The notes under the pieces are model-generated. The model was not told the DNA's origin. It made no database searches and saw only the letters and a program-made list of their open reading frames with translations. Both the position numbers and the translations under genes were made by a program. DNA of 64,000 bases from an uncultured Muribaculaceae bacterium (lineage in GTDB: Bacteria > Bacteroidota > Bacteroidia > Bacteroidales > Muribaculaceae): positions 1-64,000 of the forward strand of contig CANRPJ010000008.1 of assembly GCA_947632485.1 (NCBI GenBank). Reading direction: 5' to 3'. Shown one piece after another: positions 3,947-64,000 of this stretch (position 1 is its first letter; each line of letters starts with the position of its first letter).

Positions 3947-5650
3947 TTAGCGACGGCGCTTTTTGGAGGAGCGCTTCTTGGAGCTGGATTTGGAGGAGCC
4001 GGATTTTGACTTGCTGCCGCTTTTAGCCGGGATTTTCAGGGTTTTGCCTGCGCGGAGGGCGTCGCTGGTCATTCCGTTGGCTTTCTTGATCTCGGCTACG
4101 CTTACTCCGTATTTAGCAGCGATCGATGAGAGGGTATCGCCGTTCTTGATGTTATGAATCTTGGGCTGCGCGGGGGCTGCCTGCGTCTTGGCGGCTGAGG
4201 CGGCTTTCGAGGAGCTGCCTGAGGAGGCGGATTTGGCAGCGGTTTCGGTGCGGGTCTCGGCGGGCTGAGTCTGGGCTGAGGCGAGCTCGCGGCCTTCGCC
4301 GGCTACGGAGGTGGTGATGCGGAGCTGCTGGCCGGTGCGCACGGCGTTGCGGCGCAGGCGGTTCCAGATCTTGATGTCGGCTTCGGTCACGTCGTATTTG
4401 GCAGCGATCGAGGAGAGGGTCTCGCCGGCGAGCACCTTGTGGGTGATGGTGCGTCCGCCTGTGCGCTGCGCTGCTGCGGCGCGCACTTCGGCGATGTCGG
4501 ACTCTCCGGTATCGTCGGCGGCGGGCTGGGCCTCGGTGGCGTCAGCGAGCACTGGCTCAGCTATCTCGCGGCGGGAGTATTTATCTGCCTCATAGTTCTT
4601 TATGGCCTCTTCGCTCATAATGTAGGCGAGCGCCTGCTGCGAGGGGAGCACGAGGAAGTAGGGGTGGTCGGCGGTGGCGGGCACCACATCGCGGCGGAAC
4701 TGGGGATTGAGCATCCGGAGCTCCTCCACGGGAATGTCGAGCACGTGGGAAATCTGGTCGAAATGCAACCTGTCGGTCACTCCGATGGTATCGGTGACCA
4801 GCGGCTTGGTTGGGAGCACGGGGCTGATGTTGTGGCGCGGATAATAGTTCATCACGTAGTTGGCGGCGATGAACATGGGCACGTAACCTCGCGTCTCGGC
4901 GGGCAGATACTGGTAGATGCTCCAGAAATCGAGGTTTTTCGGGTCGCCTCCCGCGCGGCGCAGGGCCTTGTTGACGGTGCCGGGTCCGCAGTTGTAGGCG
5001 GCGATGGCGAGGCTCCAGTCGCCGTAGGCGTTGTGGAGGTCCTTGAGGTAGGAGGCGGCCTTCTCAGAGGATGCGTAGGGGTCGCGGCGCTCGTCGACGA
5101 GGGTATTCACCTCCATTCCGAGCCCCTGCGCGGTGCCTATCATGAACTGCCAGAGGCCGGTGGCTCCGTGGCGCGATACTGCATTTGGGTCGAGTCCCGA
5201 CTCGATCACCGGAAGATATTTCAGCTCGAGGGGCAGTCCCTCAGCCTCCAGAGCTTGCTCGAAGATGGGCATATAATAGGTGCTCAGGCCGAGCAGAGCC
5301 GCGACCTGGGGCCTTGATTTCTTGGTGTATCTGTCGATATAGCTGCGCACTATCTGGTTGAACGGCATCTCAATAGCCGTAGGCATAGCCTTGAGGCGGG
5401 CTATTATCTCGCTGTCGGGGGTGTCGGTATCTTCGGAGGTGGCGTAGTTTTTATCGCCGGCGGTATAGTTGGTCATATACCAGCCCTCGAGCAGCTTCTG
5501 CGTGTCGGCCTCGTAGCTCTCCGGGTAGATTATGGCGTTGTCGGTGATGCTCTCGCGGATATCGAGCACATTTTTCTTTCCGTGGGTCTGAGCCCCAGCC
5601 GCCAGTGCGGAAGCAGCTATTATGCCAAGAAGAAGGAGGTGTTTTTTCAT
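3947..5650 (-). CDS. Lytic transglycosylase with two LysM domains (MltD-like)
   Basis: A 567-residue periplasmic or outer-membrane-associated murein enzyme that should cleave the MurNAc-GlcNAc bond to leave 1,6-anhydro ends. Residues 1-20 are a cleavable signal peptide (ends AAGAQ). The SLT domain covers about residues 118-245: YLPVIESGLDP holds the predicted catalytic Glu150, then HGATGLWQFM and AIAAYNCGPGTVNKA, the usual family-1 goose-lysozyme-like motifs. Two LysM domains follow (from THKVLAGETLSSIAAKY and from IHNIKNGDTLSSIAAKY), joined by a Thr/Ser/Ala linker; these bind peptidoglycan glycan. The last 25 residues are a Lys/Ser/Arg tail, strongly basic. It is followed downstream by a terminator and lies 11 nt downstream of the DUF5683 gene, so it may belong to the parA-parB-DUF5683 transcript. 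Confidence 0.92.
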   Translation of the reverse strand: MKKHLLLLGIIAASALAAGAQTHGKKNVLDIRESITDNAIIYPESYEADTQKLLEGWYMTNYTAGDKNYATSEDTDTPDSEIIARLKAMPTAIEMPFNQIVRSYIDRYTKKSRPQVAALLGLSTYYMPIFEQALEAEGLPLELKYLPVIESGLDPNAVSRHGATGLWQFMIGTAQGLGMEVNTLVDERRDPYASSEKAASYLKDLHNAYGDWSLAIAAYNCGPGTVNKALRRAGGDPKNLDFWSIYQYLPAETRGYVPMFIAANYVMNYYPRHNISPVLPTKPLVTDTIGVTDRLHFDQISHVLDIPVEELRMLNPQFRRDVVPATADHPYFLVLPSQQALAYIMSEEAIKNYEADKYSRREIAEPVLADATEAQPAADDTGESDIAEVRAAAAQRTGGRTITHKVLAGETLSSIAAKYDVTEADIKIWNRLRRNAVRTGQQLRITTSVAGEGRELASAQTQPAETRTETAAKSASSGSSSKAASAAKTQAAPAQPKIHNIKNGDTLSSIAAKYGVSVAEIKKANGMTSDALRAGKTLKIPAKSGSKSKSGSSKSSSKKRSSKKRRR

Positions 5651-8281: not shown

Positions 8282-9661
8282 TTAAACGGCTTCGCGGTCG
8301 GCTGCCTCAAGGAGCCTCACAGTGCGCTTGAACGACCAGAGGAAGAGCACTGCAGCCACGGCCAGCGCAACCACGAAACTATAGTAGACACCTACATTGT
8401 GCCAGCCGAATCCCGCTCCGAAAAGCACCGACAGAGGCATGCCCACGCAGCAATAACTGAGCACGGCCACCCAGAGCAGCGGGCGCACTACCTTCGTGCC
8501 TCGCTGGGCGTTGGCATAGGTGACCTGCATGGCGTCGCACACCTGATAGAGCACCATCGGCAGGATCAGCGGCAGAGCCGATTCGATCACCTCTGGGTCG
8601 GGCGTAAAGAGGCGGATAAGTGGACCGGGCAGGAAAATGAATATCAGCGACGCCGCCGCGCAGAGCATCAGGTTGAGATGGAGCCCGGCGGAGGCGGTGC
8701 GCCGCATGCCGCGCCAGTCGCGCACGCCGTAGAGGTTGGCCACCCGGATTGAGGTGGCGATAGCGAAGCTCAGGTAAGTGGTGAATCCGATCTGGCTGGC
8801 AGTGTTAACCACCTGATAGGCTGCTAACTGAACCTTGCCGAACCAGCCTGATACGACCGCTCCAAACGACCATAGGGCGCATTCTGCACCTCCTTGAATC
8901 ATTGGAGGATACGAGGTGAGCCACACTTCCCGGCGCAGGCGTCGCTCATCGGTGCGGTCGTGCATTCCGGCGCGGTAGGGCGCATAGCGGCGGTGGAAGA
9001 GAATCCAGAGGAGAATGGCTGCGGCAGCGAGATAGCGGGATACTACGGTGCTGATGCCGGCGCCGTTGAGCCCCAACTCGGGAGCGCCGAAATTGCCGAA
9101 GATCAGAATCCAGTTGCCCACGATATTGAGCAGATTGGCGCTGATCATTACCCACATCGGCATAGCCGTGTCGGTGGTGCCGTTGGCGGTCTGCTGGCAG
9201 CAGCAGAATATGCTTCCGGGCACGAGTCCGGCGAGAATTATCAGATAATAGGGGCGGATAAGGGGCAGCAGGTCGGGATCCTGACCCATGCGGTCGAGGA
9301 AGGGGTAGAGGGCCGCCATTATGCCGGTAAAGACCACTCCTACAAGAATATCGACCTGCAGCGAAGCCCGGAAGATACGGCCTACACCGCGGCTGTCGCC
9401 CTTACCGAAGAGGGCGCCCACCATCGGTGTGACACCGTTGGCCAGGCCTATCAGCATAACGAAGACCACGAGGAAGACGCTGTTGACAAATGCGGCTGCC
9501 GCGAGCTCGGCGGTGCCGTAGGCGCCCACCATCATCGTATCGGCGAAGCTTACTACTATTATTCCCAGCTGGGTAACGAACACCGGGGCGCCTATTCTCA
9601 GCAGCCTGGCGTATTCCTCACGGTAGGAGGAGAGTTTTCCTATTGCGGCAGTGGGTCTCAT
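8282..9661 (-). CDS. MATE family efflux transporter
   Basis: A 459-residue polytopic membrane protein with about 12 predicted helices arranged as two similar halves, the MATE/NorM layout. Typical segments are GAPVFVTQLGIIVVSFADTMMVG (in part) in helix 1 and LIGLANGVTPMVGALFGKGD near helix 2, with the second half starting near WLTSYPPMIQGGAECALW. MATE proteins export cationic drugs or metabolites in exchange for Na+ or H+; the substrate here is not predictable. The gene stands alone: 104 nt separate it from parA, and upstream there is a terminator of the neighbouring broken gene plus a -7 box at 9670-9677. Confidence 0.9.
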   Translation of the reverse strand: MRPTAAIGKLSSYREEYARLLRIGAPVFVTQLGIIVVSFADTMMVGAYGTAELAAAAFVNSVFLVVFVMLIGLANGVTPMVGALFGKGDSRGVGRIFRASLQVDILVGVVFTGIMAALYPFLDRMGQDPDLLPLIRPYYLIILAGLVPGSIFCCCQQTANGTTDTAMPMWVMISANLLNIVGNWILIFGNFGAPELGLNGAGISTVVSRYLAAAAILLWILFHRRYAPYRAGMHDRTDERRLRREVWLTSYPPMIQGGAECALWSFGAVVSGWFGKVQLAAYQVVNTASQIGFTTYLSFAIATSIRVANLYGVRDWRGMRRTASAGLHLNLMLCAAASLIFIFLPGPLIRLFTPDPEVIESALPLILPMVLYQVCDAMQVTYANAQRGTKVVRPLLWVAVLSYCCVGMPLSVLFGAGFGWHNVGVYYSFVVALAVAAVLFLWSFKRTVRLLEAADREAV

Positions 9662-9669
9662 TGCGGCTG

Positions 9670-9677
9670 CAAAGGTA
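9670..9677 (-). promoter_or_regulatory. -7 box upstream of the MATE gene
   Basis: TACCTTTG on the minus strand matches TAnnTTTG exactly and ends 8 nt before the ATG at 9661, which would make a very short leader. No clear TTG lies at the expected distance, so this is a half-supported promoter. Confidence 0.35.
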
Positions 9678-9698
9678 CAAATAATACTTCGGTGAGCA

Positions 9699-9742
9699 TA
9701 AAAAATGCCTCCGGCCGGCTTGTTCGCACAAGTGGCCGGGGG
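9699..9742 (-). terminator. Intrinsic terminator after the glutaminase-family gene
   Basis: Read on the minus strand, a GC-rich hairpin with arms CCCCCGGCC(A)CTTGT and ACAAG(C)CGGCCGGAGG around a GCGA loop is followed by CATTTTTT. It lies about 34 nt after the stop codon at 9776. Confidence 0.75.
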
Positions 9743-9775
9743 ACTTCAATCAGGGTTAGGACCGTTTCTTTACCG

Positions 9776-12334
9776 TTAATTATTAGCGTTCCTATTGGTT
9801 GTCTTAGTCTTCATCTTGTTGAGCTTTGCCGCGAGCACCGGCATCCAGTGGCCCGCCACTACGGAGCGCGCCATGAAGCCTGTTTTTTTGCCGGTCTTGG
9901 TATCGAACCAGTCGCTGATGGGCACTCGGGTAGGCGTCTCGTTGACATAATTGTAGAGCGGCTCCACGAAGAGCATCATCTTCTCGGTATCGGGCGCCAT
10001 GGCGGCGGTCCACATTATCCAGTCGCTCTTCGAATAGTCTTTGCGGCAGTCGAGAGGCAGACCGTAGCGGTTCTGGCGGGTCAGGTAATAGTCGGTCTCG
10101 GCATTGACCGCCTTCTCGGGGAAGAGCCCCGTGCCCCAGAGCTTATCCCACACCATATTATATTTCTGGCTCCATGTGTCGTCGCGGTCGAAGGCTATCT
10201 TATAGTGAAGGTCTTTGCCGGAGCCTTCGCGGGCGTCTTTCTCCCAGCGCTCTGCCATTTCGCGGGCGCGGGCATGATAGCGCGCGGCTGTAGCGGCATC
10301 GCCGCGCATATCGGCGAGCTTCGCGTAGGCCTCTACTCCCATGATAGCCTTTACGGCGAGATTGGCATTGTGGGCCCAGTGACCGGCAAAATCGTCGGTG
10401 CAGAGCTGATTTTCAGGATCCTGCCCGTTTTCCGAAAGGTAGTCGGCCCAGGTGGTAAGTATATCCCAGTAAGGTTCTGCATAGAGGGCATTGCCGTCGA
10501 GCATGCAGCATTGTGCCATGAGAATCAGCATATTGCCGGCCTCCTCGAGAGGCATATTGCTGCCATAGCCCTGTCCGTTGGCTATCGGGTAGGTGCCCAT
10601 GTCGTGGGGCGCGTAGGGCTTGGTCCAGCGGCCGGAGTTGCAGTAGTCAAGGATAGAATTCATCATCGCCTTCTGGAGCTCAGGATTATAGACCATGAAG
10701 AGGGGAGCCTCGGGGTAGGTGAGGTCAACGGTATTTACGCAGCCGTTGGAGTCGTTTTCCTTGGAGAAGAAGAGCAGGGTACCCTTGTCGTCTTGGAAAA
10801 GCTTGTGGGCTCCTATCGCCTGGCGGTAGCTGGCGGAGAGGAGATCGGCATATTTCTGGCCTCCTACGGCATAGGCATCATCGTAGATAGTCTTGTCGAG
10901 CTCGCGGCAGCGCTTCATGGTCTGGGCATAGCCGGAGGCCATGCGGCGCAGCATATCGGTGATGCTCACCTCGCCGCCGTGGGCCCAATAGCCTTTATAG
11001 CGCTTGAAGAGATATTCTATGTCGAGAATCTCGTCGTAGCCCATCAGCGCGAAGCCGTAGGCCTGTCCGGTGGTGCCGAAATCGTGGAGGTAGGCGAGCG
11101 TCGGGCGCTCCTTGGGCTTATAGGCCTTCACCTCGCGGGCGCTCTCAGGGAGCTTTCCTCCTGCCATGAATGCAGCTTTCACCTCGGCATCGGGGGCGAG
11201 GCTCACTTCGCCGTTGATGGCCGGCAGGTAGAAATAGCCCCAGTCGATGCAGATATGGTCGTCGGCCTTGGCCAGTATAGGTTGCTCTATAGTGCCGGTC
11301 TTGAGATATTTAAGTCCCTTTTCCTCCTCCAGGGTCGAGATCGTGGGCTGATCGGCCTCGTTCTGAGCCATCTCGGGAGTAGCCGTAAGCAGCAGCTGCA
11401 CGCTTTGGGGCTTGCCGTCGCGGCTGCGCACCTGATATGAGATGTAGTTGGCCGGGGCGGAGAGCAGGTCGTAGTCATCTATCAGCATCGGCGCGGTGAA
11501 TACCAGGTCGAGGTCAACGGGGCCGCACTCAAACGTATAATAGGTAGAGGTAGGCATCACATCGATGCTTTTCTGCACTGCCGGAAGCACCTTGCCGCTA
11601 TCGGTAGGGAGCTTGCGGTAGAGACCGAGGTCGGCATAGCCGTCCCACCCGGAGTTGCGGCAATGGAGCGCTATCAGATTCTTTCCCGGTTTGAAATAGC
11701 TTTTCGCTTCGGCCGAAAGGGGAAGCTCCACTTCATTTTTCCATGTATCGCCGGTCTTTACGATCTCTTCGCCGTTCACGTAGATCTCCATCGCATCGTC
11801 GTGGGAGAATACGAGCGCCAGGTCACCCTCCAGATCGGCGGGAGTCAGGGTTACTTCACGGCGCACGTAGATGTCGCCGCGTCGGTCGTTCCAGTTGGTG
11901 CGCACATTGCTGAGTCCGAGGCTTCCGATGGCTCCTTCCGCTTCCGTCCAGCCGCTATCGTCGAAACCGGGCTTCTCCTAGCCCTCGCCGGGATCTTTGG
12001 TCACCATTCGCCCTTTCCAGGCTTCTTCATCGGCCATCGGCACTATGGTCTGCGCCATCTGTGCGGCCTCACCCATGAAGCGGTAGGTCTTGCCGTCGAC
12101 CCTCAGCAGCCCCTCGATAGGCTTCTGATTGCCGGTCCAATGGGCTGTAGAACCTTCATTAAGACGGTCATAAGGCGACCATACGGAGAAGTATGGATCT
12201 GCCACAATAACAGGCACCGACGGCAGCCGGAGCTCGGTAGCACGGTAGGGTTGAAATAGCTCATGCGTCTGGCCCGATGAGGCTAATGCAAAGGAGCATA
12301 ACGCGACGAAGACAGAGAGCCCTCTAAGTTTCAT
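9776..12334 (-). pseudogene. Glutaminase-domain (DUF4965/DUF5127/DUF1793 type) secreted protein, split by in-frame TAG
   Basis: One reading frame runs from the ATG at 12334 to the stop at 9776 (852 codons plus stop) but is interrupted by TAG at 11978-11980. The first part (118 codons) has a signal peptide (ends ASSGQT) and the family's N-terminal ELRLPSVPVIVADPYFSVW. After the TAG the same frame resumes at once with EKPGFDDSGW and continues through a jelly-roll-like region and the large helical barrel (KRYKGYWAHGG, SYRQAIGAHKLF, VDLTYPEAPLFMVYNPEL, DDFAGHWAHNANLAVKAI). In relatives a Trp commonly sits where the TAG lies (GEGW-EKP), so a TGG to TAG change is the simplest explanation. The downstream part could start at a GTG at 11905, but it would lack a signal peptide. 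These periplasmic proteins are often called glutaminases, but their substrates are mostly unproven. Pseudogene or assembly error cannot be told from sequence alone. Confidence 0.8.
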
Positions 12335-58858: not shown

Positions 58859-60484
58859 ATGGGAGACTGGCACGAGCCTCAGGGCCCCTTCGATATTCCT
58901 GATATTCCTAACTATGTGCCTCGCAGGCTGAAGCCCTGGATATTCGTATGCTTTGTGCTGATAGTGCAATTCTCCGGCGGCCTTTATCTCGCAGCCGCCA
59001 CAGATATGGTAGGCACTACGGCGCTGATGCAGGAAGATATTCTTATGGCGGGCTATGCGTCGCTGGTAGGAATGTCGATCAATTTCTGCGTGATGTTCAG
59101 GCTCAAGTTCCGCTTCTCCAACCGTGTAAGTCTTCTTGCCTGCGGAGCTGTATTGATAGCGGCCAATGCCATCTGTAGCCTTACGGCAAGCGTGCCGGTT
59201 CTTGTCGGCGCGTGCTTTGTGGCCGGTTGGTTCCGGATGTGGGCCACATTTGCTTGCAACTCCACTATCCAGACGTGGATCACTCCCAAGCGTGATATGG
59301 CGGTGTTCTTCTGCTACGTCTACATCATCGTAGACAGTGTGATTCAGCTAAGCGGAATCTCCGCCATCTATCTGGCTTTCCATTCGCAGTGGGAGTGCAT
59401 GCAATGGATAATGACAGCTCTGCTTGCGCTGATGATGCTGGCGGTGCTGATACTGCTACGACCCGTAAAAGGACCCGTGAGGATTCCTATGCTCGGTATC
59501 GACTGGATAGGAGCGGCGCTGTGGAGCGTATTCATGATGAGCTTTGTTTTCATCTGCGTCTAAGGCGATTTCTACGACTGGTGGGAGTCTGAGGAAATCG
59601 TAGGCGCTGCGGTTTTAGGTGCTGTATGCCTCGGCATAAACCTATGGCGGGCGTCGTTTCTTCATCACCCGTATATATCGTTGCCGGTTATGAGAAACCG
59701 TAATGTGGTGAGGGCTACGTTAGTCTATCTGATTTTCTTCACGCTTCTCGCCACGGAGCATGTGTTTGAGCATGGTTATGCCTCCGCGATACTCGGATTC
59801 GACGAGACCAATCTTATAGATCTGAACTGGTACGTATGTGCCGGAATTGCCGCAGGTTGCACCTTTACATATTTCACCTTCGCCAGGCGCCGGTGGAGAT
59901 ACAAGACCATGACCGCAATAGCCTTCGGTTTGGCGGCTCTCTATCTCGGCTGGTTCTATTTCTGGATAGATTACGGGGTGGAGAAAGAGGCATTGTTCGC
60001 GCCCTTGTTCGTAAGAGGTTTCGCATCAGTGATTATCTCCATCGTATTTCTCACTTCGATGACTCCCGGCGAAAGCAAACTGCATTTCTTCGTATTCCCT
60101 CAGGCACTTACGCTTAATGGATTCACGGGCGCGGTGATGGGTGCCACTCTCGGTCCGGCTCTGGTGGGGGAGTTTCTCCAGCGTACCGTGGCTAAGAATC
60201 TGGCTTTACTGAGTTCTCGGCTCACGGATATTGATGCCGGAGCTATGGGCATGCCCGTAGGGCAACTATACGGCCTGGTTTATCCTCAGGCTCTTGTAGT
60301 TTCAATGAAAGAGATCTACGGCTGGCTGTTGATCGGGGCGTTAGCTTCTCTGGCCCTAATAATAGCGAGCTACGGCAATCTACGTCCGTCGTCGGTATTC
60401 CCGAAATGGCGCACGATCCGCAAAATCTTTCGCCGTGAAGCCATTGAGGCGGGGAGAATCGAAAACACTACTGAGTACACGTGA
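58859..60484 (+). pseudogene. EmrB-like MFS transporter split by an in-frame TAA
   Basis: The ATG at 58859 starts one base after the HlyD stop. The frame is open to TAA at 59561-59563 (234 codons, about seven helices) and continues in the same frame right after it, GDFYDWWESEEIVGAAV, up to the stop at 60482, giving 541 codons in total and about 14 helices, the expected DHA2/EmrB size. The TAA replaces what is probably a Tyr codon (TAT or TAC). A TTG at 59681 could start the second half, but a half transporter is unlikely to work. The pump is probably drug or fatty-acid export in partnership with the TolC and HlyD proteins. As with the other disrupted genes, an assembly error remains possible. 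Confidence 0.8.
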
Positions 60485-60539: not shown

Positions 60540-60570
60540 GGCAGTGATAACCCGAATGGTTACCACTGCC
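60540..60570. terminator. Hairpin between the MFS gene and the exonuclease gene
   Basis: Arms GGCAGTG (60540-60546)/CACTGCC (60564-60570) and inner TAACC/GGTTA with one A-C mismatch. It lies between convergent genes and may end transcription in either direction; the T-runs are weak. Confidence 0.55.
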
Positions 60571-60694: not shown

Positions 60695-61189
60695 TTAGAG
60701 AATTTTTAGGGCTATGGCAGCGCAGGCCTCGGCATCGCAAAGAGCGTGGTGGTGATTCTCCATATCGAAACCACAGGCCGCAGCAGCTACGTCGAGGCAA
60801 TAGCTTGGGAGATTGAGACGCCTGCGCGAGGCGGCAAGCGTACAGTAAAATTCGTATTCGGGATATTCCATACCGTATTCTTTGAAGGCTGCCCGGAGAC
60901 AACTTTCGTCAAACGGCCGGTTGTGAGCTACCAGAGGAAGCCCCTTTATCAGAGGGGCCACTCGCGCCCATACCTCGGGGAATAATGGCTGATCATCAGT
61001 ATCCTGGCGTGTCAGACCGTGCACTCTCGTGGTCCAATATGAATAGTAGTTGGGAGTCGGTTTTATGAGGCTGTAGAATCTATCTACTACCTCACCGCCT
61101 CTTACAATCACGAGTCCCACACTGCATACGCTCGAGCGCCGACTATTGGCAGTCTCAAAATCGATAGCCGCAAAGTCTTTCATAATCAA
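60695..61189 (-). CDS. DEDDh-type 3'-5' exonuclease
   Basis: A 164-residue DnaQ-like exonuclease: DFAAIDFETANSRRSSVCSV provides the first Asp and Glu (motif I), GLPLVAHNRPFDESCLRAAF motif II, and NHHHALCDAEACAAIAL motif III with the His of the DEDDh type. Length and layout match small oligoribonuclease/RNase T/epsilon-like enzymes, not polymerase fusions. It overlaps the WYL gene by 4 nt and is last of the minus-strand run rtcB, FtsZ-like, WYL, exonuclease. It could trim RNA or DNA ends; in this setting RNA is plausible. Confidence 0.85.
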   Translation of the reverse strand: MIMKDFAAIDFETANSRRSSVCSVGLVIVRGGEVVDRFYSLIKPTPNYYSYWTTRVHGLTRQDTDDQPLFPEVWARVAPLIKGLPLVAHNRPFDESCLRAAFKEYGMEYPEYEFYCTLAASRRRLNLPSYCLDVAAAACGFDMENHHHALCDAEACAAIALKIL

Positions 61190-62091
61190 TCGTTTTTATA
61201 GAGAGCATGCATGTCGGCAGTCCAATCTTTCATAGTCTTGCGGAGTGATGCCGGCTTGATCACTTCGATCATAGCTCCGACGTGGAGCAGCTTCATCACA
61301 AAATCGTAGGTAGGAGCAAGATACAGTTCGAAATCAGCGTAATCTCCGCAATCTTCAATCAGTCGCTGACTGTGGTGCAGAGGCAGCGACTTCATATAGT
61401 GCTTATGTTCTTCATTGGCACGGATCACGATTCTTTCAGCCTTTATCTCCGGATCGACTACTATACCATAGGCGGTGGAGAAGAACGAGCCTGGGTCATA
61501 ATCTTTTGGCAGCTTGAAAGTATCGTCGGTGAGCTCTATGTTTTCCACTCGGTCGAGTCCATAGAGACGGAGTTCGCCATAATCAACGTTGAGCGCCAGC
61601 ACATACCAGCGGTTTTCAAACAGCTTCACGCAGTAGGGCTCTATCGGAAAAGTAGAGCTATGTTGCTTCCTGAAAGATCTGTATGTGATTTTTACTACTC
61701 GATTCTCTTTCATGGCCTCAATAATGGTAGTGAGATGATCTCTGCCGGAAGGAATCTCATTGACGATAATCCTTCCTTTCAGCGAGAGATTTTCTCCTAT
61801 CAGATTGCCCACGGCGAAGGAGTCGAGCATCCACTTTTTGAGTTTGTCGTCGTCGATGTCTTCCGGATTGGCTATGAAATATAGATAGCCTCCTACCTTC
61901 TGGCAATCGATGAAGATGCTGAACTGCTCGTAGATAGCATCGCGCCATCGGTTGAACGTAGCGCGGTGGAGCGGGCGGCAGTCGCTGAGGTCTTTGTTGC
62001 GCTCCCACTTGTCGGAAAGCTCTTTATGGGTGATCTTTCCGGCCCGGCGAATGGTCTCTATCAGCCAGGTGTATTTCTGCAGTTGAGTCAT
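61186..62091 (-). CDS. WYL-domain transcriptional regulator
   Basis: A 301-residue regulator: N-terminal winged helix (about 1-75, KYTWLIETIRRAGKITHKEL, RPLHRATFNRWRDAIYEQFS), a WYL domain (about 118-200, FENRWYVLALNVDYGELRLY holds a W-Y-L-like core and LDRVENIELTDDTF follows), and a WCX C-terminal domain. WYL proteins sense nucleic acids or nucleotides and control defence or DNA damage genes in many bacteria. It sits between an FtsZ-like GTPase gene and an exonuclease gene, overlapping the latter by 4 nt. A -7 box lies 23 nt upstream. Confidence 0.9.
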   Translation of the reverse strand: MTQLQKYTWLIETIRRAGKITHKELSDKWERNKDLSDCRPLHRATFNRWRDAIYEQFSIFIDCQKVGGYLYFIANPEDIDDDKLKKWMLDSFAVGNLIGENLSLKGRIIVNEIPSGRDHLTTIIEAMKENRVVKITYRSFRKQHSSTFPIEPYCVKLFENRWYVLALNVDYGELRLYGLDRVENIELTDDTFKLPKDYDPGSFFSTAYGIVVDPEIKAERIVIRANEEHKHYMKSLPLHHSQRLIEDCGDYADFELYLAPTYDFVMKLLHVGAMIEVIKPASLRKTMKDWTADMHALYKND

Positions 62092-62113
62092 ATCGGTAAA
62101 TGCTTTGTCACTG

Positions 62114-62121
62114 CAAAGTTA
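62114..62121 (-). promoter_or_regulatory. -7 box candidate upstream of the WYL gene
   Basis: Minus-strand TAACTTTG matches TAnnTTTG and ends 23 nt before the ATG at 62091, so the WYL and exonuclease genes may have their own start. No TTG at the usual spacing. Confidence 0.4.
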
Positions 62122-62178
62122 ACACAAAGCTGTATCATTTTGCGCTACAGGATGAAAAATATCTCTTTTCTGCTGATT

Positions 62179-62709
62179 TCAGGCCATACCCTCCTCAATA
62201 GCGGCCAATATCTCCTTATCGGCTATTTTGAATGCATCGGCAAAACCGAGATCCGGGTAATTCTTTACCAGGTTTTCATTGTTGAAAGCCTTCAATTCTA
62301 CGTCTTTAATCCTTGATACGGGCAAAGCTGCATCAATTGCCTTAATAAGTCGTTTCTCCCCTTCAAACAGGAATGGTGTGGTGGTAATCACCTGGATCGA
62401 CATAACCCCGGCTTTCTTAGCTTCGCTCACCGCCGGCATTAAGAATTTCGATCCAGTCATGCCACCCATACCTGCAATGATATAGAGCTTCTCCACCTCA
62501 GTGAAAACACCTTCAGGAAAGGCGTCCTGCTCCGGGTTGAGAACAATCAGTTGTCGATTGTCGGCATTATGTTTCTTCAGACTGTTTTCATCGGTATCAG
62601 CAAATAGATAGTTTGCCTCCTTCAGCTCGGTCTGCTTCGCATCTCTGCATATCGTTTCAGCAATATTGCCACCGGCACCGCCGAGAGCGAGAATCATGGT
62701 CTTTGACAT
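62179..62709 (-). CDS. Stand-alone FtsZ/tubulin-like GTPase domain
   Basis: A 176-residue protein that matches the N-terminal half of FtsZ: LGGAGGNIAETICRDA (T1 loop, residues 9-24), LFADTDENSLKKHNAD (T3), IIAGMGGMTGSKFLMPAVSE (T4 tubulin-signature-like loop, residues 77-87, with Met in place of a Gly), ITTTPFLFEGEKRLIKAIDA (T5 side) and FNNENLVKN followed by DLGFADAFKIADKEILAAIE (T6 and central helix H7). It ends right after H7. The C-terminal domain of FtsZ, with the T7 loop that gives the catalytic Asp to the next subunit, is absent, so self-polymer GTPase activity is not expected. It is not ftsZ itself, which is about 400 residues and lies in the dcw cluster. It follows rtcB on the same strand and has a promoter of its own at 62729-62757. 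Confidence 0.8.
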   Translation of the reverse strand: MSKTMILALGGAGGNIAETICRDAKQTELKEANYLFADTDENSLKKHNADNRQLIVLNPEQDAFPEGVFTEVEKLYIIAGMGGMTGSKFLMPAVSEAKKAGVMSIQVITTTPFLFEGEKRLIKAIDAALPVSRIKDVELKAFNNENLVKNYPDLGFADAFKIADKEILAAIEEGMA

Positions 62710-62728
62710 ATATCAGTTTCTTTTTTAG

Positions 62729-62757
62729 CAAAGGTACATATTAGATTCGATCCTCAA
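62729..62757 (-). promoter_or_regulatory. Promoter candidate for the FtsZ-like gene
   Basis: Minus-strand TTG (62755-62757), 18-nt spacer and TACCTTTG (62729-62736), a perfect -7 box, 19 nt before the ATG at 62709. It sits in the 52-nt gap after rtcB. Confidence 0.5.
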
Positions 62758-62761
62758 CGGG

Positions 62762-64000
62762 TTATGAGGCTTTGAAATTGAAGATGGGGCGAATAATGGT
62801 ATCGATGCTTACGGTATCACCGATGTTGGCGATAATCTCTTCGGCCGGCTTATAAACCATCGGCGATTCGTCACGAGTGAAGTCGTTGACCGATTCTGAG
62901 TAGATGCCCTTCATCGAAGCCTCGAAGTCTTCCATCGTAATCTTTTCGTAAGCCTGGCTGCGGCTGAGCACGCGCCCGGCACCGTGGGGAGCGGAGCAAT
63001 TCCAGTCGGGATTGCCCTTTCCCGTGCATAGCAGCGAGCCATCGCGCATATTCAGGGGAATGATACAGCGTTCCCCTGCTGCCGCTGAGATCGACCCCTT
63101 GCGGATTATATTGCTGTCACTTATGTAGTTGTGAACAGATTCGAACTCCTCCATAACCTCCGTATTCTGAAAGAATTTCAGGAGAAGCAGCGAGATGAGC
63201 CTGCGGTTGAGCACGGCCCAACGCTGGCAGATGCGCATATCGTGAAGATACTGCTCGCGCTCTTCTCCTTCCACATAGCACAGCGCATCGGGCAGCGAAG
63301 GAGCTGAAGCCGGCCTATCCCTGCGCATCTTCCGGATCACCTCCTGCAGCTCGGAGCGCCGTCCGGCGGCTTTATATTCTGAAATAGTGCGCTTTATGCT
63401 CTCTTCAAATTCATCAGAGCCGGCAGTGAGGTGCTTTACCGCCTTCGCCTGATAAATCTCCGCCACCTGCTTGCCGAGATTGCGCGACCCGGTATGAATC
63501 ACGAGATATACGTTGCCCTCGTCGTCTCTGTCGAGTTCAATAAAATGGTTACCCCCACCGAGAGAGCCGATCGACTTGTTGATGCGTCCCGAGTCTTTCA
63601 GCTGCCTGTAGCAGTAAAGCTCAGTCACGAGTTGCTTCGCCTCCCGATATATCTCCATCTCTTCGCCAACAAGGCGTTTGAACCCCAACCGGTCTTCACG
63701 AACTATCTTGCCGGAAGGCACGCTGCTGCGGATATGCTCGTGGAAAGCGTGATAGTCAATATCGGTGAGTTTGCCAAGATTCAGGATTCGCATACCGCAA
63801 CCGATATCCACACCTACTATATTGGGTATCACTTTATCGCCGAGGTCGCCCGTGAAACCAATCACGCAGCTAGCCCCTGCGTGAACGTCGGGCATAATCC
63901 TGATTTTCTTATCAGAGAAAACGTCGATCGAAAGCAGCTCCCTGATCTGCTCCAATGCGGATTCCTCAATATTATCTGTGAATATCTTCACGTCGTAGCC
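62762..64000 (-). CDS. RtcB-type RNA ligase, 5' end at window edge
   Basis: The frame is open to the window edge, with three codons (GYD) beyond the GTG at 63991, so the true start probably lies outside; 412 codons are visible. It has the RtcB metal and guanylation set, counted from the GTG: Asp35 and His37 (MPDVHAGA), Asp62 and Cys65 (VDIGCGM), Asn148-His149 (GSLGGGNHFIEL), His166 (VIHTGSRNLG), His287 (ESVHNYIS), and His336 in APHGAGRVLSR, the residue linked to GMP in family members. RtcB joins 2',3'-cyclic phosphate or 3'-phosphate RNA ends to 5'-OH ends, repairing RNA cut by ribotoxins and in some organisms ligating tRNA halves. In bacteria it is usually under damage-response control. Here an FtsZ-like domain, WYL regulator and exonuclease follow in the same direction. 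Confidence 0.93.
   Translation of the reverse strand, partial: GYDVKIFTDNIEESALEQIRELLSIDVFSDKKIRIMPDVHAGASCVIGFTGDLGDKVIPNIVGVDIGCGMRILNLGKLTDIDYHAFHEHIRSSVPSGKIVREDRLGFKRLVGEEMEIYREAKQLVTELYCYRQLKDSGRINKSIGSLGGGNHFIELDRDDEGNVYLVIHTGSRNLGKQVAEIYQAKAVKHLTAGSDEFEESIKRTISEYKAAGRRSELQEVIRKMRRDRPASAPSLPDALCYVEGEEREQYLHDMRICQRWAVLNRRLISLLLLKFFQNTEVMEEFESVHNYISDSNIIRKGSISAAAGERCIIPLNMRDGSLLCTGKGNPDWNCSAPHGAGRVLSRSQAYEKITMEDFEASMKGIYSESVNDFTRDESPMVYKPAEEIIANIGDTVSIDTIIRPIFNFKAS

Follow-up and report, generated by a model that had tools for sequence, protein, structure and literature searches.

A putative WYL-controlled RNA-repair island with two RtcB ligases and an optional FtsZ-like accessory in Muribaculaceae

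INTRODUCTION

The RNA ligase RtcB joins 3'-phosphate or cyclic-phosphate ends to 5'-OH ends using GTP, and to our knowledge the control of RtcB-PrfH RNA repair outside proteobacteria is an open question. Here we analyze a 64,000-nucleotide (nt) stretch of DNA from an uncultured Muribaculaceae bacterium (positions 1 to 64,000 of contig CANRPJ010000008.1, assembly GCA_947632485.1; "the window"). At its end lies a run of four genes encoding an RtcB ligase (RtcB1), a small FtsZ-like protein (FtsZL), a WYL regulator (WYL1), and a DEDDh exonuclease (EXO), which an earlier reading of the sequence (the original prediction) had proposed to be an RNA-damage-response module. That proposal stands in outline, in that RtcB1 is accompanied by RtcB2-PrfH and the genes are linked by two operators; FtsZL, also included in it, is not a core member. 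The locus looks WYL-controlled.

The closest described systems hold some of these parts. RtcB2-PrfH is reported to shield E. coli against colicin E3 (PMC9223846), and PrfH-RtcB is regarded as ribosome rescue coupled to repair (PMC6514570). Among WYL proteins, BrxR binds an inverted repeat and represses, DriD is named as a WYL activator (both PMC9122601), and single-stranded DNA is bound by DriD and triggers PafBC (PMC12340889, PMC11804915); the study that found DriD also found the division inhibitor DidA (PMC4211646). The text of PMC9223846 covered by our word search does not mention WYL. Literature on RtcB with WYL, PrfH, metallophosphoesterase, tubulin/FtsZ-like, or operator did not describe the island in title or start of abstract among the matches listed, a scope outside which the main 2016 survey of RNA-repair neighborhoods falls. 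We rate the island as a combination of known RtcB and RtcB-PrfH repair enzymes in which the regulatory layout and the accessory are new.

RESULTS

The four-gene run is half of a two-ligase island

The run in the window belongs to an RNA-repair island, of which it forms the left half; the island extends past base 64,000 (Table 1). EXO-WYL1-FtsZL-RtcB1 is divergent from a metallophosphoesterase gene (MPE), which is followed by a second WYL gene (WYL2) divergent from RtcB2-PrfH-AAA. Open reading frames (ORFs), strands, and Pfam matches bear out four minus-strand genes in the order rtcB, FtsZ-like, WYL, exonuclease, with the predicted gaps of 52 and 87 nt. A predicted 4-nt overlap of WYL1 and EXO exists only if a TTG start is used; the homologs in L260 and L262 start MQDF/MKDF, which places the EXO start near 61183 and leaves the overlap doubtful. 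RtcB1 has a conserved start at about 64015 on the same contig, past the window end.

This contig carries both RtcB genes of the genome, at a distance of about 2.0 kb from each other; they score 195.6 (RtcB1) and 188.9 bits (RtcB2) against PF01139 (cut-off, 27). RtcB1 motifs DxxC, GNH, HxGSR, and HGAGR align with those of PH1602 RtcB, and include what we take to be the guanylylation site and the metal ligands; the catalytic motifs of RtcB2 align in part with solved RtcB chains. PrfH passes TIGR03072 (193.1 bits; cut-off, 166.65) and adjoins RtcB2, with the frames overlapping by 4 nt. RtcB2 falls below the PrfH-linked RtcB model TIGR03073 (79.1 bits; cut-off, 271.8), suggesting that the pair here is a divergent form. 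RtcA (PF01137) was found in 0/12 island genomes, with a positive E. coli control.

Both the WYL and the WCX domain of WYL1 score above their cut-offs, placing it among the WYL regulators, and the only solved chain that it matches is PafBC. The closest solved chain to EXO is a PolC-type exonuclease. For MPE, the solved relatives at E 0.01 are MPPED2 chains only, and residues 1 to 197 match positions 10 to 215 of the 223 in the PADLOC candidate PDC-S10 (E 5.6e-71). Its GHIH motif is also that of chain 3rl4, and chain 3rl3 has GGIH, the wild type. Against the NCBIfam model for the IteA/IetA anti-phage ATPase, the score in the island is 99.9 bits, below the cut-off of 510.

Table 1. Positions of the island features on the contig. 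The window ends at position 64000.
Feature	Position	Strand	Basis or remark
Terminator-like hairpin, 13-bp stem	60540-60570	-	Pattern match only; 3' of EXO
EXO, DEDDh 3'-5' exonuclease	60695-61189; start probably near 61183	-	RNase_T, PF00929, E 3e-19
WYL1 regulator, 301 aa	61186-62091	-	WYL (E 1e-16) and WCX domains
-7 box TAACTTTG, candidate WYL1-EXO promoter	62114-62121	-	9 nt after operator 2
Operator 2 (TGTAGC-N7-GATACA), upstream of WYL1	62131-62149	-	Sequence pattern
FtsZL, predicted stand-alone GTP-binding half of FtsZ, 176 aa	62179-62709	-	Pfam Tubulin/FtsZ GTPase, E 3e-9, 37.9 bits (cut-off 33)
-7 box TACCTTTG, ahead of FtsZL	62729-62736	-	Sequence; island operator absent there
RtcB1 RNA ligase	62762-64000	-	PF01139, E 2e-57; ORF runs off window end
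Operator 1, before RtcB1	64059-64077		Just outside window
Operator 2, 2 mismatches	64173-64191		Before MPE
MPE, metallophosphoesterase	64228-64824	+	Calcineurin-like phosphoesterase domain
WYL2 regulator	64929-65951	-	
Operator 1	65992-66010		Between WYL2 and RtcB2
RtcB2	66045-67241	+	RtcB family, 188.9 bits
PrfH	67238-67870	+	TIGR03072
Operator 2, 1 mismatch	67882-67900		Before AAA
AAA gene	67943-69640	+	

The island recurs across the family

We surveyed 247 genomes of the family (Muribaculaceae). MPE is present in 65 of them, at 69 places; RtcB1, scored at no less than 75% identity, in 53; and WYL2, at E 1e-120 or better, in 39. For WYL1, 47 genomes matched at E 1e-90 or better; 8 with more distant matches were dropped, leaving 39. 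Of 60 stretches taken around MPE, 58 were readable; with L003, L034, and L035 these make 61 rows of up to 7 genes on each side, and 20 RtcB1 regions and 8 others were read in addition.

RtcB1, MPE, WYL2, RtcB2, and PrfH stand together in 10 of the 61 rows (L003, L145, L146, L147, L148, L152, L153, L158, L160, and L169), which is more than a chance gathering; the remaining rows are broken by contig ends or miss some parts. In the recurrent order, the EXO-WYL1-RtcB1 run diverges from MPE; next comes WYL2, which diverges from RtcB2-PrfH, frequently accompanied by AAA. Variable genes lie upstream of MPE and between WYL1 and RtcB1. Among the WYL2 genomes, 37/39 have RtcB1 and 32/39 have RtcB2 (Fisher p ~1e-28 each, uncorrected for kinship; the RtcB2 set includes G135 and G289, added by reading loci L251 and L241). 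RtcB1 is also present in 29 of the 39 WYL1 genomes. Of the 69 MPE places, 22 have RtcB1 within 5 kb, on the opposite strand in all 22, and 14 have RtcB2 within 5 kb, on the same strand in all 14.

Two operators divide the island genes

Operator 1 (TGCGCA-N7-TGCGCA) was counted, with at most 1 mismatch and within 250 nt, before ORFs over the identity threshold that have a near-complete N terminus and at least 150 nt upstream. It precedes RtcB1 in 37/40 cases (33 exact), RtcB2 in 21/22, and WYL2 in 21/23, and is absent upstream of WYL1 (0/27), EXO (0/21), AAA (0/10), and the gene clusters C5 (0/5) and C0 (0/13). Further matches lie upstream of cluster C6 (1/10), MPE (7/56), and FtsZL (1/12), those at MPE and FtsZL being taken to be intergenic regions in common with a divergent RtcB1. 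The exact operator occurs twice in the window's own genome, both times in the island. Whole-genome scans of 24 hand-chosen genomes gave 29 sites in the 12 with an island, 25 of them beside RtcB or WYL2 by position, and 3 in the 12 controls lacking an RtcB match; the pattern read backwards gave 1 site over all 24.

On the RtcB1/RtcB2 side, a [TC]AnnTTTG box mostly follows the end of operator 1 at 9 nt, and on the WYL2 side the spacing is 15 to 17 nt. The RtcB1 loci without operator 1 (in G018, G188, and G094) all belong to genomes without WYL2 at the survey threshold. Operator-1 sites are kept at RtcB1 and RtcB2 in G228, where WYL2 is on another contig, and in G150, where an intact WYL2 is 2.5 Mb away. 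These WYL2 genes are not moved single genes: decayed RtcB2/PrfH copies adjoin them, and they are hence leftover pairs. The argument for action in trans still holds, as in both genomes an intact WYL2 is distant from the RtcB1/RtcB2 operators.

Operator 1 was also seen in two other settings. At G228:C55:188058 (L292) it falls within the 5' portion of a 357-aa frame, 9 nt ahead of a -7 box; the start of this frame may lie after the operator, and the neighboring gene is, by eye, restriction-specificity-subunit-like. On G094:C67 (L288), an exact operator 1 separates a WYL2-like gene (40%) from a divergently oriented gene of a third RtcB type (31%).

Operator 2 (consensus TGTATC-N7-GATACA) was counted with at most 2 mismatches; the window's site before WYL1 reads TGTAGC-N7-GATACA. 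It is found upstream of WYL1 in 16/27 cases, of AAA in 10/10 with near-complete N termini (two AAA fragments are without it), of FtsZL in 5/12, of MPE in 10/56, and of clusters C0 and C3 in 1/13 and 1/2, and it is absent upstream of RtcB2 (0/22), WYL2 (0/23), EXO (0/21), and C5 (0/6). As background, 1.85% of 2000 windows placed at random in the loci, without removal of true sites, carry a match. In the window's own genome, a narrower pattern matches WYL1 and one unlinked place on contig 10 only; over 18 genomes it occurs in 6 of the 9 with an island and in 1 of the 9 without. The unlinked site (G000:C10:44152-44170; L293) precedes a 180-aa gene; the G219 island holds a gene that resembles it by eye and likewise carries operator 2 at the 9-nt spacing.

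Both operators are 6-N7-6 repeats, and for both the commonest spacing to the -7 box is 9 nt (41/112 and 42/100 oriented sites; the next commonest spacing has 12 sites). This supports two parallel regulons, predicted from sequence patterns, with WYL1 and WYL2 as obvious candidate regulators, as each of the two genes has one of the operators next to it. The two internal promoter candidates of the original prediction both turned out to hold TAnnTTTG, presumably the Bacteroides-type -7 box (TAACTTTG at 62121-62114 and TACCTTTG at 62736-62729); an operator precedes only TAACTTTG, and the best operator-2 match before TACCTTTG has 5 mismatches. E. coli-type promoters (6 matches against 4.3 expected) were disregarded, as the -7 box fits better.

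FtsZL is an optional accessory found mostly beside MPE

Judged by its sequence, FtsZL is the conserved GTP-binding half of FtsZ, recruited as an optional accessory. It occurs in 12/247 genomes (E below 1e-30; the best match read as ordinary FtsZ is at 7e-23). At 8 of the 12 places it stands 2 to 5 nt upstream of MPE on the same strand, and at two more it is no further than 3.2 kb from MPE (the window's is 1.5 kb away, on the other strand), so that 10/12 lie within 5 kb. Of the last two, one has an internal stop and no MPE, and the other is a longer divergent frame on a contig without MPE. Upstream of FtsZL-MPE there is often a DprA/SLOG-like gene (C5), an unnamed gene (C6), C9, which is weakly restriction-endonuclease-like (below cut-off), or C0, which has a metallo-beta-lactamase fold and is weakly RNase J-like (below NCBIfam cut-offs).

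The original prediction put FtsZL at the core of an rtcB-FtsZ-WYL-exo operon. We rejected this: FtsZL is in just one of the ten full-set rows, the window's own (L003), its usual neighbor is MPE, and over the 12 family places plus G013 and G014 it lies between RtcB1 and WYL1 in the window genome only, where its placement behind RtcB1 looks derived. As a counterpoint, a distant FtsZ-like protein of 227 aa adjoins WYL1 in the RtcB1 run of G219 (L239). The expectation of a small FtsZ-like gene near RtcB and WYL elsewhere is partly borne out, with 5/12 places within 5 kb of RtcB1 and 3/12 within 5 kb of RtcB2.

An AlphaFold model of FtsZL (pLDDT, 88; 8 sequences) matches FtsZ in every one of its 50 listed PDB matches, and the sequence scores 54.6 bits against NCBIfam ftsZ (cut-off, 295). 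Aligned with the FtsZ of its own genome, it retains T1, T2, T4, T5, and T6, with the segments NNENL and AF..AD among the parts kept. Missing are T3, T7, and all that comes after T7, the C-terminal domain included. T3 contributes to the longitudinal contact. All 12 aligned proteins have 171 to 183 aa and end within helix H7. From this pattern of loops kept and lost, nucleotide binding is likely, and self-activated GTP hydrolysis and filaments are not. As FtsZ filaments use the T7 loop and the C-terminal domain, both absent here, the scaffold role that had been suggested is unlikely.

FtsZL is under purifying selection (dN/dS 0.10 to 0.28 in 12 of 13 pairs; the 13th is saturated), and all 12 sequences form one clade (support, 1.0) on a long stem, which argues against a recent copy of the host FtsZ. 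The 12 sequences of the operator counts, alignment, and tree are not the 12 survey places (G230 and G294 are out, G013 and G014 in), and eight further loci (including L039, L040, L042, L044, L045, and L046) largely repeat survey genomes and are not independent. A fragment or pseudogene of host FtsZ was rejected given the separate 458-aa FtsZ frame, the single clade, and the dN/dS values. Mean identity is 30.0% to 27 same-genus FtsZ proteins versus 29.0% to 62 others, many of the same family. The nearest tree leaves are from distant phyla, a placement that long branches can produce. One scan of viral contigs gave 23 pattern matches with no relative among them, and of 295 genomes of the order one, the window's own, has FtsZL; the listed part of this set includes three further genomes of the same family. 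An apparent FtsZL-GNAT fusion (L041; GNAT by eye) was set aside, as comparison with L044 makes it look like a local deletion that fused FtsZL with an acetyltransferase gene lying downstream.

More distant small FtsZ-like proteins above the Pfam cut-off are that of L239, beside WYL1; L255, with a WYL1-like gene 3.3 kb off; and L256, which is alone. Longer ones are L036, with vWA, and L257, whose long N-terminal region is macro-like by eye only. L037 holds an FtsZ-like relative beside ADP-ribosylglycohydrolase and FtsK-type genes. No island operator was found within 200 nt upstream of L239, L255, L256, and L036 at up to 2 mismatches.

Other features of the locus and its relatives

The hairpin at 60570-60540 is a possible operon end. 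Beyond it, at 58859-60484, an MFS-transporter-like frame (by eye) appears interrupted, being split into two same-frame ORFs (58859-59563 and 59681-60484). Elsewhere in the same genome, G000:C24 (L199) carries an apparently decayed second island at 4871-5020 and 9079-9978, with a 50-residue piece of MPE and a WYL1 paralog at 60% identity. A MoxR-type AAA gene (by eye) lies close to EXO in L148, L152, and L260, with a 442- to 445-aa partner in L148 and L152. Cluster C0 (L143, L151, L174, and others) is a metallo-beta-lactamase-fold gene of about 420 or 620 aa upstream of MPE; in L034 and L172 there is also a 200-aa piece standing apart.

DISCUSSION

A probable WYL-controlled island and its proposed working

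We think it probable that the locus is a WYL-controlled, two-ligase RNA-repair island in which FtsZL serves as an optional GTP/GDP-binding subunit working with MPE. The gene content, its recurrence, the operators and their geometry, the domain loss of FtsZL, and its adjacency to MPE are all observed. The pairing of each WYL protein with an operator, the sign of control, the inducer, the enzyme substrates, and the role of FtsZL are what we infer from them. In this model, WYL2 on operator 1 would control RtcB1, RtcB2-PrfH, and WYL2 itself, and the targets of WYL1, through operator 2, would be AAA, its own WYL1-EXO unit, and MPE, alone or together with FtsZL. Judged by how far they lie from the -7 box, both operators would overlap the -33 region, and the simple reading is that unliganded WYL represses, with a nucleic-acid or nucleotide damage product relieving repression. 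Known RtcB, PrfH, and WYL systems make derepression by damage-derived nucleic acid the simplest model; activation is possible too, since DriD and PafBC are activators. A ribonuclease toxin or a phage-triggered nuclease might cut tRNA or rRNA, upon which RtcB1 and RtcB2 would seal the 3'-phosphate/5'-OH breaks, PrfH would free the stalled ribosome, and EXO and MPE may process or remove RNA ends or cyclic-phosphate products. FtsZL could work with MPE, most likely by adjusting the activity of MPE to the level of GTP.

Several observations weigh against this reading. The link of operator 1 with WYL2 is imperfect, since 7 of the 37 RtcB1 loci with the operator are in genomes without WYL2 at threshold (Fisher p 0.012). 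Operator 2 also stands upstream of RtcB1 (9/40) and C6 (2/10) and at only 10/56 MPE loci, of which two have no -7 box at 9 to 10 nt; for 8 MPE loci with operator 2, WYL1 was scored in 5 genomes, and for the 5 FtsZL loci with it, in 3 (one of the two missed, G014, was outside that search). WYL1 pieces nonetheless lie beside MPE or FtsZL in G148 (L169) and G262 (L261), and many MPE loci without operator 2 have another gene directly in front. In the window genome, FtsZL is parted from MPE, has no operator 2, and has its own -7 box, and it may be a passenger. Many RtcB1 and MPE genes stand without the other island genes, and RtcB1 has no island neighbor at all in the stretches read for L242, L243, and L245 to L249. 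Finally, relatedness inflates the co-occurrence statistics.

Alternative explanations

FtsZL and MPE could instead be a separate small defense module that is merely co-located, with FtsZL as sensor and MPE as a WYL1-repressed, nucleotide- or RNA-destroying effector. The match of MPE to PDC-S10 fits this, as does the occurrence of MPE/FtsZL without RtcB beside DprA/SLOG-like, metallo-beta-lactamase-fold, and PD-(D/E)XK nuclease genes. We nevertheless consider it unlikely, because the orientation of MPE relative to each nearby RtcB is constant (22/69 and 14/69 places within 5 kb of RtcB1 and RtcB2) and because at some loci MPE has operator 2 in common with WYL1 and AAA. A broader idea, which we put forward tentatively and hold to be improbable as a whole, is that conflict systems in the family reuse the GTP-binding half of FtsZ as a nucleotide sensor that forms no filaments; in the RtcB island, under WYL control, it would sense GTP, which is the cofactor of RtcB, and choose between repair and an arrest of growth or division. 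The contexts that prompt it are the pairing with MPE in RtcB islands, the WYL1-adjacent L239, the vWA fusion, the fusion that is macro-like by eye, and the ADP-ribosylglycohydrolase and FtsK-type neighbors.

Simple clustering in a defense island, with FtsZL, EXO, and RtcB1 as unrelated hotspot genes lacking a joint function, would account for the many variable genes inserted around MPE and between WYL1 and RtcB1 and for the rarity of FtsZL (12/247); it is quite unlikely in view of the strong co-occurrence and of two common operators whose promoter geometry recurs and of which one is found mostly at island genes in the genomes scanned.

Very doubtful is FtsZL as a division brake, induced from operator 2 after RNA damage and capping the exposed T7 end of FtsZ filaments with its nucleotide face, so that septation halts until repair. 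The face (T1, T2, T4, T5, and T6) is kept with the C-terminal partner surface lost, operator 2 is at 5/12 FtsZL genes, local identity reaches 46% to same-genus FtsZ in the matching part versus at most 39% in other families of the order, and DriD/DidA offers a precedent for DNA damage in Caulobacter (PMC4211646; PMC9122601); against these stand the missing T3, the single long-stemmed clade with no recent host-FtsZ copy, and a neighbor that is MPE and no division gene.

Significance and comparison with known systems

For the putative WYL-controlled island, a precise test is now possible, with two defined operators, two candidate WYL regulators, and predicted targets, one of them unlinked. If WYL2 indeed senses RNA damage, WYL sensing would extend beyond DNA damage and phage defense. 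FtsZL, under purifying selection and directly ahead of MPE at 8/12 places, would be a non-filament use of the tubulin/FtsZ fold.

Like FtsZ, and like FtsZl1/FtsZl2 as described (PMC2875224), FtsZL has the GTP-binding fold and loop motifs; unlike FtsZ, it ends in helix H7, without the T7 loop, the C-terminal domain, and the T3 loop. MPE matches both MPPED2-type metallophosphoesterases and PDC-S10 but, unlike these, is encoded beside FtsZL or RtcB in an island. The RtcBA operon with its regulator RtcR (sigma-54, CARF) likewise sets RtcB beside a ligand-sensing regulator of CARF or WYL type; here the island genomes are without RtcA (0/12) and the regulators are WYL proteins, no search for RtcR having been made. 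As in the RtcB2-PrfH operon of E. coli ATCC25922, which repairs colicin E3-cut 16S rRNA, an RtcB paralog is directly followed by PrfH with overlapping frames. The pair described here differs in being divergent from a WYL gene, in having a TGCGCA operator in common with a second RtcB, and in being joined by MPE, AAA, and an exonuclease. BrxR, DriD, and PafBC are WYL proteins too; unlike them, the two WYL proteins of this island appear to split an RNA-repair set between them, each with its own 6-N7-6 operator.

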